A stretch of DNA of 24,610 bases, from IMG/VR virus record IMGVR_UViG_3300042564_000738, positions 1-24,610 of that record; one strand, written 5' to 3'. The notes below the pieces were generated by a model. It did no database searches. It was not told where the DNA came from and worked only from the letters and a program-made list of their open reading frames with translations. Source of the stretch: a virus. Made by a program: the position numbers and the translations under genes. How positions within the stretch are numbered: the first letter of the stretch is position 1; every line of letters starts with the position of its first letter. Positions 11,123 through 24,610 of the stretch are shown piece after piece.

Positions 11123-12899
11123 CGTACACATTTTAAGTTTAAGTGCTTATAATTCTCCAACGATAACTGAATCTAAAAATAAAGATTTTGTTGAATACGG
11201 AGAAGATAACAACTATTTTCAATACTTAATAGATAGGTTTTTATATTCAAATACAAATCACGCTATTATAACAGGTATTGCTAATATGGTTTATGGTAAA
11301 GGTCTTGATGCTACCGATTCAAATAGAAAGCCTAACGAGTATGCACAAATGATGTCTATTGTAAAAAAGGATTGTTTGCGTAAAGTATCTTTGGAACGTA
11401 AACTTTTAGGTATGGCTTCAATGCAGGTTATTTACTTAAACGGAAAAGTTAAATCTGTTGAGCATTTTCCTATTCATACTTTACGTGCTGAAAAATGTAA
11501 TGACAAAGGCGAAATTGAAGCGTGGTTTTATCATCACGATTGGGCAAATTACAGAAAAGGTGACCAATTAAAACGTATCCCTGCTTTTGGTTTTGGTAAC
11601 GGAAAAGAAGTTGAAATATATGTTATTAAGCCTTATATTTCAGGTTACCATTATTACACTCCGATAGATTATTCAGGTGCTTTACCTTATGCAATGTTAG
11701 AGCAAGAAATTTCTGATTACTTGATTAACGATGTAATGAACGGATTTAGCGGTACAAAAGTAATTAACTTTAATAACAATATACCACCTGAAGAAAAACG
11801 TCAAGAAGTTGCAAACGATGTTAAACGTAAATTAACAGGTTCACGTGGTGACAAAGTAATTGTGTCTTTTAATGCAAGTGCTGAAAACAAAACAACAGTT
11901 GATGATATTCCTTTAAACGATGCTCCTGCTCATTACGAGTATTTAAGCACTGAATGTTTTGAAAAATTAATCGTAGGCCATAGAGTTACAAGTCCAATGC
12001 TTTTAGGTATTCGTGAATCAGGTGGCGGTTTAGGTAACAACGCTGATGAAATAGAAACTGCTACACGTTTATTTGACAATATAGTTATTAGACCATATCA
12101 ATTAGAAATCATTGAAGCTATTGATGAAATATTAGCTATAAACGGAATCGCTTTAAACCTATATTTTAAGACGATACAGCCACTTGATTTTATAGACGTA
12201 AATACTATGAACGCAGAAACAAACGAAGAGGAAACAGGCGTTAAAATGTCTTCTGACAAGGTTTGTTGTTCTGCCGATGATTCTTTAGATGATGAGGTTG
12301 CACAAAGTCTAATTGACTTGGGTGAATTTCAAAATGAAAATTGGTTATTAATTGACGAAAGCGAAGTTGACTACGATAACGATGATGCTGAAAACGAATT
12401 ATTAAATAAAGAACCAAAACAAAGTTTACTATCTAAAGTTTACAATTTTGTAAGTACAGGAACTGCAAGACCAAACGCTAAAAGTGAACAAGATGAAAAC
12501 ATTGATGGTATTCGTTTTATAACTCGCTATGTTTATGCAGGTGAAAATTCTGATAATACTCGTTTGTTTTGCAAAAAAATGACAGAAGCAAATAAAATTT
12601 ATCGTAAAGAAGATATTATAAGAATGTCTGAACAAGCGGTTAATAAAGGTTGGGGTCCACGTGGTGCTGATACCTATTCAATATGGTTATATAAAGGCGG
12701 TGGAGCGTGTCACCATCGTTGGAATAAGCAAGTTTATGCAAGTTTTGAAGGCGTTAACATTGATGTTAATTCACCTAAAGCAAAAATAATAGCAGGTGCA
12801 AAAGCTGAAGCGTATGGATATACAATCAAGAATGCTGCTTTAGTTTCACAAAGACCGATAGATATGCCAAACAAAGGATTTTTACCTAAAAACAATTAA
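11115..12899 (+). CDS. Portal protein with C-terminal minor-head-like module
   Basis: A 594-residue protein. Residues 1 to about 365 look like a portal: EYGEDNNYFQYLIDRFLYS near the N-terminus, membrane-free helical and strand segments, then SDYLINDVMNGFSGTKVINF, FEKLIVGHRVTSPMLLGI and a GLGNNADEIETATRLFDN helix, a typical portal stem/wing stretch. After an acidic linker (about 365-435) comes a separate module (about 465-545): RFITRYVYAG, TRLFCKKM, IYRKEDI, then GADTYSIWLYKGGG and ACHHRW. This TR-x-FC / Y-x-(K/R)-(E/K)-DI / GGG-x-C-x-H-x-W order recalls C-terminal domains of MuF-type minor head proteins; Cys486, Cys532, His533 and His534 could bind metal. The fusion would tether an internal head protein to the portal. 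Confidence 0.75.
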   Translation: MNNVHILSLSAYNSPTITESKNKDFVEYGEDNNYFQYLIDRFLYSNTNHAIITGIANMVYGKGLDATDSNRKPNEYAQMMSIVKKDCLRKVSLERKLLGMASMQVIYLNGKVKSVEHFPIHTLRAEKCNDKGEIEAWFYHHDWANYRKGDQLKRIPAFGFGNGKEVEIYVIKPYISGYHYYTPIDYSGALPYAMLEQEISDYLINDVMNGFSGTKVINFNNNIPPEEKRQEVANDVKRKLTGSRGDKVIVSFNASAENKTTVDDIPLNDAPAHYEYLSTECFEKLIVGHRVTSPMLLGIRESGGGLGNNADEIETATRLFDNIVIRPYQLEIIEAIDEILAINGIALNLYFKTIQPLDFIDVNTMNAETNEEETGVKMSSDKVCCSADDSLDDEVAQSLIDLGEFQNENWLLIDESEVDYDNDDAENELLNKEPKQSLLSKVYNFVSTGTARPNAKSEQDENIDGIRFITRYVYAGENSDNTRLFCKKMTEANKIYRKEDIIRMSEQAVNKGWGPRGADTYSIWLYKGGGACHHRWNKQVYASFEGVNIDVNSPKAKIIAGAKAEAYGYTIKNAALVSQRPIDMPNKGFLPKNN

Positions 12900-12902
12900 C
12901 AA

Positions 12903-13415
12903 ATGGCTCACGCATTACTAATAAGTACAGAAGATGTAAAAAGATTTACAATACTAAATGGAAATTTAGATGTAGATGATTTTATTCAATATATAAAAAT
13001 AGCACAGGATATAACTATTCAAAACTATTTAGGAACTGATTTATACAATAAGTTTCAAACATTAATTTTAAGTGGTGATATTAGTTTAAACGCTAATTTA
13101 AAGTACAAAAACTTACTTACTGAATACATTAAACCGATGTTGATTCATTTTGCTATGGTTCAATATTTACCATTTGCTGCTTATACAATAGCTAACAAAG
13201 GAGTATTTAAACATACTTCTGAAAACGCTACAAGTGTAGAAAAAAACGAAATTGATTTCTTGGTTGAAAAGGAACGTGATATTGCACAACACTATACGCA
13301 AAGATTCATAGATTTTATGTGTTTTAATAATCAAGATTTTCCTGAATATAATAGTAACTCTAATGGGGATATGTACCCTGATACAGACAATTTTTATGGT
13401 TCGTGGGTGCTCTAA
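12903..13415 (+). CDS. Head-tail connector (DUF6712-like)
   Basis: A 170-residue helical protein: LLISTEDVKRFTILNGNLDVDDFIQYIKIAQDITIQNYLGTDLYNK, then KNLLTEYIKPMLIHFAMVQY and IANKGVFKHTSENA. An N-terminal helix pair, a 'Y-L-G-x-x-L-Y-x-K' segment, and an 'N-K-G-V' turn before a long helix match small head-completion proteins downstream of portals in Bacteroidetes phages (DUF6712-like, analogous to gp6/gp15 connectors). It lies three bases after the portal gene. The C-terminus is polar and Asn/Asp-rich. Confidence 0.6.
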   Translation: MAHALLISTEDVKRFTILNGNLDVDDFIQYIKIAQDITIQNYLGTDLYNKFQTLILSGDISLNANLKYKNLLTEYIKPMLIHFAMVQYLPFAAYTIANKGVFKHTSENATSVEKNEIDFLVEKERDIAQHYTQRFIDFMCFNNQDFPEYNSNSNGDMYPDTDNFYGSWVL

Positions 13416-19869: not shown

Positions 19870-21057
19870 ATGAAAATCAATTTAACACATAAAATTAACA
19901 ATGATAAATATACTGAATATGTATATGAAGCATTTGACATACAAAATAAAAATGAATCAAATGTTTTAGTTGAAGCTAATTTAGAAAATTTACCAAAACA
20001 ATGGAACATAGGAGTTGTGTATGGTGGAAGTGGTACAGGTAAAACTACAATATTAAAAAATTATTTCAAAAAAGAAATGGATGTTTCATATTTTGATAAT
20101 AATAAATCTTTAATATCTAATTTTGATTGGTTAGAACCACAAGAAGCTACATTTTTATTATCAGCTATGGGATTGTCTTCAGTACCAACTTGGTTACGTC
20201 CATTTAATACATTATCAAACGGAGAACAATATCGTGCTAATCTTGCTTATTTAGTAGGAAAAGCATCAGATAATGAAGTAATTTTAGTTGATGAATATAC
20301 ATCAGTAGTAGATAGAGATGTCGCTAAAGCTATGTCTAATGCGTTACAAAAATATATTAGACGCACAAACAAAAAAATTGTACTTGCATCTTGTCATTTT
20401 GATATTATGGAATGGTTGCAACCTGATTGGATTTATTCACCATCAAAAGGGCGTCTTGAGATAGCGCCATCACTTCGGCGACCAAAAATTGAACTTCAGA
20501 TTGTTCGATGTCGATATGAAACTTGGAAATTATTCAAACACAATCATTATTTAACTGAAGATTTAAATAAAGCTGCAAAATGTTTCGTAGCTTTGTTCAA
20601 TGATAAACCAATAGCTTTTATGGCTATATTGCCTTTTCCGAGTGGTGTTATTCAAAATGGTTATCGTATTTCACGAGTAGTTGTATTGCCTGATTTTCAA
20701 GGTTTAGGAATTGGTTTTAAATTTTGTGATTGGTTTGGACAAGTTTATAAAAACGATAATAAAACAATGTACATAAAAACATCAAATCCTGCTTTGTGGT
20801 CTGTTTTTAATAATTCAAAAAATTGGTTATTTTGTGGCGAAACAAAAGGAGAAGAAAAAGCAGAAATGATGCAATCAAAAAAACAAAAAACACAAGGTGA
20901 TTATAATACATCAACAAGAATATCTAAATCTTATAAATTTGTAGGAGTTGAAAACGACATAAATACGGATTTAATAACGTTTAATGCTGATGCTTGGAAA
21001 GACGTTGCTCAAAATCAAATTAGTATATTTGACATCATAAACGAACAATTTGATTAA
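19870..21057 (+). CDS. ABC ATPase - GNAT acetyltransferase fusion
   Basis: A 395-residue two-domain protein. Residues about 20-200 are an ABC-type ATPase: Walker A GGSGTGKTT (52-60), signature LSNGEQ (115-120), Walker B VILVDEYTS (137-145), D-loop SVVDRD, and switch histidine H176 in CHFD. No membrane domain is encoded nearby, so transport is unlikely; a DNA- or RNA-acting role is more plausible. Residues about 208-330 are a GNAT domain with ISRVVVLPDFQGLGIG (267-282), the Q-x-x-G-x-G acetyl-CoA loop. A charged C-terminal region follows. The domain order recalls TmcA (ATPase plus GNAT, tRNA acetylation) in concept only, since TmcA uses a different ATPase. Modification of phage nucleic acid is the leading hypothesis. 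Confidence 0.85.
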   Translation: MKINLTHKINNDKYTEYVYEAFDIQNKNESNVLVEANLENLPKQWNIGVVYGGSGTGKTTILKNYFKKEMDVSYFDNNKSLISNFDWLEPQEATFLLSAMGLSSVPTWLRPFNTLSNGEQYRANLAYLVGKASDNEVILVDEYTSVVDRDVAKAMSNALQKYIRRTNKKIVLASCHFDIMEWLQPDWIYSPSKGRLEIAPSLRRPKIELQIVRCRYETWKLFKHNHYLTEDLNKAAKCFVALFNDKPIAFMAILPFPSGVIQNGYRISRVVVLPDFQGLGIGFKFCDWFGQVYKNDNKTMYIKTSNPALWSVFNNSKNWLFCGETKGEEKAEMMQSKKQKTQGDYNTSTRISKSYKFVGVENDINTDLITFNADAWKDVAQNQISIFDIINEQFD

Positions 21058-21058
21058 A

Positions 21059-21277
21059 ATGAATCATATTTTAGATATACAAGATAAATATTTCAATGAT
21101 ATTAAAACAGGAATCAAAACATTTGAAATAAGACGTAACAATCGTAATTATGCAGTAAACGACACTTTAACGTTAGTTAATTTAGAAACTAATGAAGCGC
21201 TTGTAAAAACAATTATATACGTTACTGATGTATCTATTTACGATTTAAAACATATATTAATATTAGGAATAAAATAA
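21059..21277 (+). CDS. DUF3850 / ASCH-like small protein
   Basis: A 72-residue protein with the DUF3850 pattern: HILDIQDKYFNDIKTGIKTF, then EIRRNNRNYAVNDTLTLVN, ending in a hydrophobic strand (HILILGIK). DUF3850 belongs to the PUA/ASCH-like folds, which often bind or process RNA or modified bases. I chose the ATG at 21059 over a TTG nine bases upstream, so the gene begins one base after the ABC-GNAT stop and is probably in its operon. The G-x-K-T-x-E-I-R segment (18-25) can be lined up with G-R-K-T-I-T-I-R of E. coli YqfB, an ASCH enzyme, except that the YqfB nucleophile Thr24 is Glu here. Confidence 0.72.
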   Translation: MNHILDIQDKYFNDIKTGIKTFEIRRNNRNYAVNDTLTLVNLETNEALVKTIIYVTDVSIYDLKHILILGIK

Positions 21278-22923: not shown

Positions 22924-23115
22924 ATGATTTACATTTTATTAGCTTTATTAGTTATTCTTTTAATTTGGGCAGACCAAACAGATAAAGATATTCAGATAGC
23001 ATCAATACAGGGTTTTATGGTTGGTGTTCTTTATGACTGTGATGAACAAGATGAAGAAAAATATTATACTATTCAGGTTTTGCTTGGAGTTTTATCAATT
23101 AATATTTATTGGTAA
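22924..23115 (+). CDS. Small membrane protein
   Basis: A 63-residue protein whose N-terminal helix (IYILLALLVILLIWADQ) is a probable membrane anchor. It is followed by an acidic loop (CDEQDEEKYY) and a hydrophobic end (VLLGVLSINIYW). Its TAA stop shares a base with the next ATG (TAATG at 23113-23117), so expression is probably coupled to the sigma-like gene. Function unknown. Confidence 0.55.
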   Translation: MIYILLALLVILLIWADQTDKDIQIASIQGFMVGVLYDCDEQDEEKYYTIQVLLGVLSINIYW

Positions 23116-23627
23116 TGAATATTTTAAATCAGGTTGCAAAGTATCATAACGATTGGGTAGAACTTGCTTCGGTATTTGACAAAGATTGGGCAGAGGATAT
23201 CGTTCAGGAAATGTACCTTTTATTACATAAATACAACGTAACCGAACAGCAAATGTTTACTAATGGTAAAATCAATCGTGGTTATGTATTTATAATAATA
23301 AGAAACATACACTTTCAACTTTACAATATTAGAAAACGTATTGACAAATGTGAATTGAATGATGAAATTTACAACTTGATTGATGACTATTCAGAAGAGA
23401 AAGAAAATGAATGGAATGAATTTAGAATAAAAGCAGAACAAGAAGTTAATAGTTGGGAATGGTACGATAAAAAGCTATTTACTTTATACAGGGATAATAA
23501 AACCTCAATAAGAAAATTAGCAAAAGAAACAGGTATTAGTTTTGTTTCAATATTTCACACGTTAAAAGCTAATAAGCAAAAACTTAAAAGATTACTTCAA
23601 GAAGATTACGATAACTTAAAACTTTAA
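23115..23627 (+). CDS. Sigma-70-like (ECF-type) transcription factor
   Basis: A 170-residue protein. Residues 26-40 (AEDIVQEMYLLLHKY) resemble sigma region 2.1-2.2. Residues 57-75 (GYVFIIIRNIHFQLYNIRKR) resemble region 2.3-2.4, which contacts the -10 element. Residues 128-152 (NKTSIRKLAKETGISFVSIF) form a helix-turn-helix like region 4. An acidic linker (about 92-110) separates them. I chose the ATG at 23115 over a TTG six bases upstream. It may direct host RNA polymerase to a subset of phage promoters; a non-sigma HTH DNA-binding protein is the alternative. Confidence 0.65.
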   Translation: MNILNQVAKYHNDWVELASVFDKDWAEDIVQEMYLLLHKYNVTEQQMFTNGKINRGYVFIIIRNIHFQLYNIRKRIDKCELNDEIYNLIDDYSEEKENEWNEFRIKAEQEVNSWEWYDKKLFTLYRDNKTSIRKLAKETGISFVSIFHTLKANKQKLKRLLQEDYDNLKL

Positions 23628-23631
23628 AAAA

Positions 23632-24009
23632 ATGGGTAGACCAAAAAAATCAAAAGGACTTGGTGATACAATAGAAAAAATCACTGAAGCAACAGGAATT
23701 AAAGCAGTAGTTGAAGCAGTATCTGAAGCAACAGGAATAGATTGTGGTTGCGAAGATAGAAAGCATTTACTTAACAAAATATTTCCTTATAAAAAAACAG
23801 AGTGTATAAACGATGTAGATAACGAATGGTTAACTAATTTCTTTTCGGTAACTAATAATCAGTTAACACCAAAGCAACAGAATAGAATTACTGAAATTTA
23901 TAAGAATGTATTTAATGAAAACATACAGCCTTCAAATTGTGGTTCTTGTTGGAGAGATAAAATAAACGAACTCAAACAAGTTTACGATACGCAAAATGCA
24001 AGTAAATAA
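23632..24009 (+). CDS. Cys-containing conserved-type phage protein
   Basis: A 125-residue protein. The N-terminus is basic (MGRPKKSKGLGD) and holds two similar segments, ITEATGI (17-23) and VSEATGI (30-36). It then has C38-x-C40 (DCGCEDRKHLLNKIFPY), Cys58, and C103-x-x-C106 (NCGSCW). The five cysteines could bind a metal. The 'GLGDTIEK...ATGI...DCGC-(E/D)-(E/D)-R-K-x-x-L-N-x-x-F-P-Y' layout is one I associate with proteins of Bacteroidetes phages and prophages, without known function. A terminase-associated or DNA-binding role is possible. It overlaps the next gene by 14 bases. Confidence 0.55.
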   Translation: MGRPKKSKGLGDTIEKITEATGIKAVVEAVSEATGIDCGCEDRKHLLNKIFPYKKTECINDVDNEWLTNFFSVTNNQLTPKQQNRITEIYKNVFNENIQPSNCGSCWRDKINELKQVYDTQNASK

Positions 24010-24610
24010 ACAAAATAGGTTTGAAGTATCTTTTGATAAAACAAAGTTTAGTTTATTAAACAAAGACAAAAAGATTGCTTGGCTATTTAGAAGTTCAGAA
24101 GTTGGAAAATGTGCTAAAATATTTGATGACTATTATAACTCTGAACAAACTTTAACTCCAAAAGGTTGGTTTTTATTTTATAAGTCAGTAATGGGTGTTG
24201 ATATACTAAAAGAAGTTTCCAATAAGATTATGGAAATAACTAAATTAGATGAAGATACCTGTTTTGAATATACAAAGTTTAGAGTTCTTGGTCAAACTTG
24301 GAATGGTATGTTAAACGAAATAGATTTAATTAACGAACTTAAACAAGAATTTCCAAACATTGAATTTAGAAAGGCAAACTATAATTTAGATGAAAACTAT
24401 TTTACTGATTGGGAAGCATACAGCCACGGAAAATTATTTTTAGGTTTACAAATTAAGCCAATAACGTATCAGTATATGAATACACCTTATCAGAATCAGG
24501 CTAAATTGAACCACGAACTGCAAAGGCAAAAATACAAAGATGAGTTTAAAGTTCCACATTTTTTAATATATTACGAGAACAATAAACTACAAGACAAACA
24601 AAAAGTAATA
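23996..24610 (+). CDS. MjaI-family-like restriction endonuclease (C-terminus cut off)
   Basis: An open frame from ATG 23996 to the window end, 205 residues so far. The order of motifs matches what I know of the MjaI restriction endonuclease family: TWNGMLNEIDLI (101-112, T-x-G-x3-E, with Glu108), YFTDWEAY (135-142, Asp138), LGLQIKPITY (149-158, a Q-x-K followed by P-x-T-Y), and FKVPHFLIYYEN (184-195, strand near the end). Glu108, Asp138 and Gln152/Lys154 would form a PD-(D/E)XK-type active site. The prototype MjaI cuts CTAG. No methyltransferase is visible in this window. The start overlaps the upstream gene by 14 bases. The family call is by motif recognition and the recognition site is inferred. 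Confidence 0.65.
   Translation, partial: MQVNKQNRFEVSFDKTKFSLLNKDKKIAWLFRSSEVGKCAKIFDDYYNSEQTLTPKGWFLFYKSVMGVDILKEVSNKIMEITKLDEDTCFEYTKFRVLGQTWNGMLNEIDLINELKQEFPNIEFRKANYNLDENYFTDWEAYSHGKLFLGLQIKPITYQYMNTPYQNQAKLNHELQRQKYKDEFKVPHFLIYYENNKLQDKQKVI

Follow-up and report, generated by a model that had tools for sequence, protein, structure and literature searches.

The last gene of the window, meaning the whole analysed stretch of 24,610 nucleotides, very probably specifies a type II-like endonuclease from the MjaI lineage of restriction enzymes, an orphan with CTAG as its recognition site and with immunity conferred by loss of that site, i.e. restriction without modification. The association between gene and missing site is seen in several unrelated types of element, both phages and plasmids. 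The site loss shows selection by a sequence-specific process; cleavage, and cleavage of CTAG in its unmodified form, are inferred.

The endonuclease gene and its neighbours

The window is the entire 24,610-base record of a freshwater virus (IMGVR_UViG_3300042564_000738). The genome is siphophage-like, with Flavobacterium and Nonlabens phages as its kin; it is incomplete, so that genes downstream of the endonuclease had to be read in relatives. The features discussed are as follows.

1–24610, no strand: stretch free of CTAG and also of GATC, CATG and CTGG/CCAG (tetramer counts).
23109–23627, + strand: sigma-factor-like/HTH protein (phrog_1740, E 9.5e-6), the next gene upstream of the flank gene; synteny kept in relatives.
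23632–24009, + strand: gene flanking the nuclease slot on its upstream side (phrog_32048), kept in relatives whichever nuclease comes next.
23996–24610, + strand: MjaI-family (PF09568) endonuclease gene (Pfam match; full-length relatives 95–99% identical).
24290–24319, + strand: G-x-T-W-N-G-x3-E motif, residues 99–108 (G99...T101...E108; alignment of homologues).
24389–24457, + strand: likely catalytic core D132/D138/E140...Q152-x-K154 (invariant in homologues).

A preliminary description had placed an MjaI-like endonuclease at the end of the window, with the motifs of the family in the expected order, and both claims hold. The open reading frame has an ATG start and runs off the contig end, with 205 of about 219 residues present, and its product matches Pfam PF09568 (RE_MjaI; E 1.3e-6, 28.8 bits) above the curated cut-off of 22.7; viral homologues with 72% and 44% identity score under this cut-off. 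Thr101, Trp102, Asn103, Gly104 and Glu108 do not vary among 16 phage proteins, and two Firmicutes homologues keep the entire G-x-T-W-N-G-x3-E motif save Gln100. The D132/D138/E140...Q152-x-K154 residues are unvaried across all homologues, at identities as low as 25–28%, and their PD-(D/E)XK pattern suggests that they are the likely catalytic core. Further invariant stretches in relatives are Q152-x-K154-P-x-x-Y158 and V186...Y192-Y193. The AlphaFold model of the endonuclease of one relative (L007; pLDDT 88) may have a PD-(D/E)XK-like fold; its top fold matches (Hjc, Vsr and BsaWI) have Z scores of 7–8, a range in which chance similarity is possible. A sequence search of the PDB gave no useful relative, a first search of isolated phages gave no homologue, and no relative emerged when species genomes were scanned with an alignment of the phage proteins alone; a search through Pfam opened up the wider family. 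An ASCH/DUF3850 gene lies at 21050–21277, about 2.7 kb upstream of the MjaI homologue.

R.MjaI recognises CTAG. Of 395 Bacteroidota genomes, 60 contain PF09568, and the chromosomal genes directly adjoin a TSPPY-class DNA methylase at 11 of the 12 loci inspected. Unlike these homologues, the phage endonuclease is an orphan. Relatives in which the missing end is visible have an endonuclease of about 219 residues, with small conserved phage genes after it. No methyltransferase lies beside it in carrier contigs where the next genes are visible, so the cognate methylase next door that the preliminary description named as a refutation is not seen in these relatives, and scanning G005–G008, contigs of ∼30 kb, for methylase motifs gave none. 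The same scan located unrelated methylases some kilobases from the endonuclease in G001, G004 and G009; these were rejected as partners, being weakly similar to MjaI-associated methylases and not common to carriers. The arrangement expected of a type II restriction–modification system, a cognate methyltransferase beside the endonuclease, is found neither in the carrier contigs that show the next gene nor in the two plasmids described below. The phage and plasmid versions share with MjaI-type systems the family, the T-W-N-G/E and Q-x-K-P core and CTAG as the linked site, but differ in having no partner methylase and in their proposed self-protection by absence of the site.

Loss of CTAG in the window, in viral relatives and in megaplasmids

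The window contains no CTAG, in agreement with the earlier statement that the site is missing where base composition would predict several dozen; the exact count of 0 compares with expectations of 40–63 (52.2, sd 6.5, from dinucleotide shuffles; 40.5 from a maximal-order Markov model; 63 from base composition). However, GATC (0 of 42 expected), CATG (0 of 35) and CTGG/CCAG (0 of 82) are also absent, which the preliminary description had overlooked. The window alone therefore cannot tie CTAG to the gene, the original argument from it was too weak, and CTAG loss by itself was rejected as proof since four tetramers are missing. There is a single CTTAG/CTAAG where about 24 are expected, and TAAG stands at less than half of expectation. 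The non-palindromic CTGG/CCAG is absent from the window and from 58 viral contigs, mostly endonuclease carriers, and no gene matching this loss was found.

Viral relatives were gathered via the endonuclease and the terminases and reduced to 246 distinct contigs. Nor does CTAG reach its expected frequency in relatives that carry the gene: the count is zero in all 45 endonuclease-bearing viral contigs (0 of 1314 expected), at endonuclease identities down to 43%. By comparison, CTAG is zero in 31 of 93 contigs that lack the endonuclease and show either the slot itself or a different one of its nucleases (Fisher p 5e-16; neither the Fisher tests nor the E-values take account of relatedness). Among 63 gene families in deduplicated contigs the endonuclease ranks first for CTAG depletion (40 of 40 carriers; 0 of 1168 sites expected). 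Phylogenetically independent pairs, of which five were supported (2.8 agree on average and 0 disagree), are too few for significance.

CTAG is the sole tetramer missing from every carrier, the other missing tetramers varying among them. CATG is retained in the carriers L334 (64 of 75 expected), L296 (50 of 54) and L340 (31 of 45), GATC is near normal in L334 and CTGG/CCAG is retained in L297–L300, yet CTAG is zero in these contigs. In this phage clade CTGG/CCAG loss tracks the endonuclease in part (36 of 43), the only exceptions being the L297–L302 group and the plasmids; assignment of CTGG/CCAG to the same enzyme was rejected because L297–L300 and the plasmids keep this sequence while carrying the gene. 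Apparent exceptions to the missing sites occur in G013 (L127; 4 CATG, 2 CTAG, 2 GATC and 4 CTGG/CCAG) and G036 (1 CATG). These sites are confined to the start of the contig (all within positions 1–400 in G013 and within the first 49 bases in G036) and therefore look like chimeric contig ends. As a point against the pairing, CTAG is also zero in some relatives that lack the endonuclease (G014, 0 of 54; G034, 0 of 55; L404, 0 of 59), which might be past carriers or reflect other pressures.

Independent replicons show the same association. A tblastn search of plasmids identified orphan homologues of MjaI, with E values from 4e-9 to 1e-12, in two Firmicutes megaplasmids, pSC2 of Paenibacillus polymyxa and unnamed1 of Brevibacillus, neither of which has a methylase adjoining the gene; the phage and Firmicutes versions are 25–28% identical. 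CTAG is absent from both (0 of 632 expected in the 470 kb of pSC2 and 0 of 624 in the 414 kb of unnamed1), whereas GATC, CATG and CTGG are at 80–100% of expectation. Four sister megaplasmids without PF09568 contain CTAG at 63–86% of expectation (64 of 74, 42 of 67, 36 of 54 and 38 of 58). An ASCH-domain gene adjoins the MjaI homologue in both carriers (L174 and L175), and pSC2 also carries rpsL, rpsG, fusA and tuf (L233, 1818–6163). Over the stretch read, three megaplasmids without the endonuclease (L304–L306) are entirely free of other palindromes: GATC and CCGG in Aneurinibacillus, GATC, GGCC and GCGC in Jeotgalibacillus, and AGCT in Alkaliphilus. These may harbour other orphan nucleases.

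Alternative nucleases of the slot and their tetranucleotides

In relatives that lack the endonuclease, other small proteins lie between the same two flanking genes.

alt: in the slot; 130–136 residues, WDCY...ELKC; model pLDDT 86, best fold match to Hjc resolvases (Z 11.7).
alt3: after the same upstream gene; 131–134 residues, HPSDIDAV...EVK.
alt4: in the slot in L379 and L441 and elsewhere in the genome in other contigs; 114–124 residues, IEVK...SRGK-SG.

Three of the four nuclease families have no Pfam match over the cut-off, and searching the PDB by sequence for relatives of the GATC-linked nuclease yielded nothing useful. CATG is zero in 52 of 52 alt carriers (0 of 1741 expected, contig ends of 500 bp having been trimmed before the count), and alt ranks first of the 63 families for CATG. 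GATC is zero in 12 of 12 alt3 and 9 of 9 alt4 carriers, and these families take the first two ranks for that site. Carriers of the CATG-linked alt can have close to normal CTAG (90 of 111 expected). Where two nucleases occur together both sites are affected: L010, with the endonuclease and alt, lacks CTAG and CATG, and contigs with alt and alt4 lack GATC and, apart from a single copy at the end of a contig, CATG. The slot, as predicted from these sequences, is occupied by interchangeable small nucleases, each paired with loss of its own tetranucleotide.

The pairing extends to phages outside the sample. In ct2KA10, an unrelated phage with an alt homologue (43% identity), the predicted loss of CATG was observed (0 of 132), as was that of GATC in Tenacibaculum phage pT24, which has an alt3 homologue (0 of 112 in the 40 kb read). 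ct2KA10 (L479, OX376641) lacks five palindromes (AGCT, CATG, GATC, GGCC and CCGG), and only the CATG-linked nuclease was identified in it. Seven phages, namely C75C1 and six Pelagibacter isolates, have alt4 homologues, all with zero GATC, counted over whole genomes for three and over 16 kb stretches for four, while Pelagibacter phages without alt4 contain 131 of 139, 46 of 43, 26 of 35 and 8 of 43 expected sites. In HTVC200P and HTVC119P, an HNH/endonuclease VII-like protein (L485, 6877–7350; L487, 7054–7527) takes the place of the GATC-linked nuclease between DNA polymerase and exonuclease. The GATC-linked nuclease gene of HTVC019P spans 12845–13249.

The alternative that the tetramers were lost to evade host restriction–modification, the nuclease gene being incidental, draws on well documented site avoidance of this kind (PMC6286503), on the three further tetramers missing from the window with no matching gene found there and on the absence of CTAG from some relatives that lack the endonuclease. 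It is nevertheless unlikely. On host HTCC1062 the carriers HTVC019P and HTVC025P have 0 of 95 and 0 of 78 expected GATC and the non-carrier HTVC010P has 131 of 139, and on HTCC7211 two carriers have 0 of 35 and 0 of 47 against 46 of 43 in a non-carrier, a contrast among phages of the same host that host restriction cannot explain. CTAG likewise differs by gene among sister plasmids, and the ranking of genes for each site is headed by the nuclease family paired with it. Recognition-site avoidance in viruses, the subject of that survey, has in common with the present case the complete loss of short palindromes, and no term for phage-encoded or solitary enzymes was found in the survey; here the avoidance tracks the element's own enzyme rather than that of the host.

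Restriction without modification as a possible strategy of mobile elements

If the gene encodes a CTAG-specific nuclease, its acquisition would select for total loss of its own site, and the phage would need no methylase because this selection would have purged every CTAG from the genome. Self-immunity through site loss, as first put forward from the window, finds comparative support in the zero CTAG of carriers and the lack of an adjacent methylase. During infection the enzyme would cut any DNA with unprotected CTAG. The simplest target would be the host chromosome, providing nucleotides and shutting down the host, and others would be co-infecting or resident phages and plasmids; the benefit is thus likely to be cleavage of the host chromosome or of rival DNA. 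Were the nuclease swapped out, the sites would presumably reappear only gradually, and this would account for relatives that lack it and are nonetheless poor in CTAG. Counting against the proposal, an active CTAG cutter on a resident plasmid should attack the chromosome of its host, barring silence of the enzyme or some protection of the host.

Cleavage of a methylated site in the manner of DpnI, with sites lost since host methylation makes phage DNA a target, predicts the same site loss, and the CATG-linked nuclease has weak matches in fold that include DpnI and NhoI/Eco15I (Z about 7). This reading is improbable, as it needs matching methylases in all hosts, and MjaI homologues of known type, like MjaI itself, act on unmethylated sites, with the protecting methylase adjacent. 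The remaining alternative, that the slot encodes nucleases of replication or recombination akin to Hjc junction resolvases, not restriction enzymes, and that the sequence link is a by-product, accords with the model of the CATG-linked nuclease being closest to archaeal Hjc (103 residues aligned), with the setting of the slot among replication genes and with the position of the Pelagibacter homologues between DNA polymerase and exonuclease, but is very improbable because junction resolvases leave total loss of one exact tetranucleotide unexplained, the endonuclease is a true MjaI homologue and L298 and L299 also have a RusA-like and L296 a NinG/HNH-like open reading frame (by eye). The modelled fold of the 130-residue CATG-linked nuclease, and perhaps that of the C-terminal domain of the endonuclease, resembles that of Hjc and other PD-(D/E)XK resolvases, but a missing exact tetramer is unexpected for structure-specific enzymes.

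The host-DNA-degrading nucleases of T4 and the restriction–modification genes of Chlorella viruses spare viral DNA through base modification or methylation. The proposed orphan endonuclease would similarly cut host DNA and spare its own, with protection arising from the lack of sites. No precedent for restriction without modification was found in the open-access literature, to which the search extended. The four families together probably reflect a general strategy of mobile elements, in which unrelated PD-(D/E)XK-type nucleases would be swapped as cassettes, each forcing the loss of its own tetranucleotide; missing words would then record the nucleases carried now or before, and a carrier's genome could reveal which sequence an uncharacterised phage nuclease recognises. 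The specificities proposed for the four families (CTAG, CATG and GATC) are testable, and since isolated Pelagibacter and Tenacibaculum phages carry members, a laboratory test is possible. Restriction without modification would give restriction enzymes a second way of telling self from non-self, and part of the palindrome avoidance of phages would be explained by their own genes rather than by those of the host.
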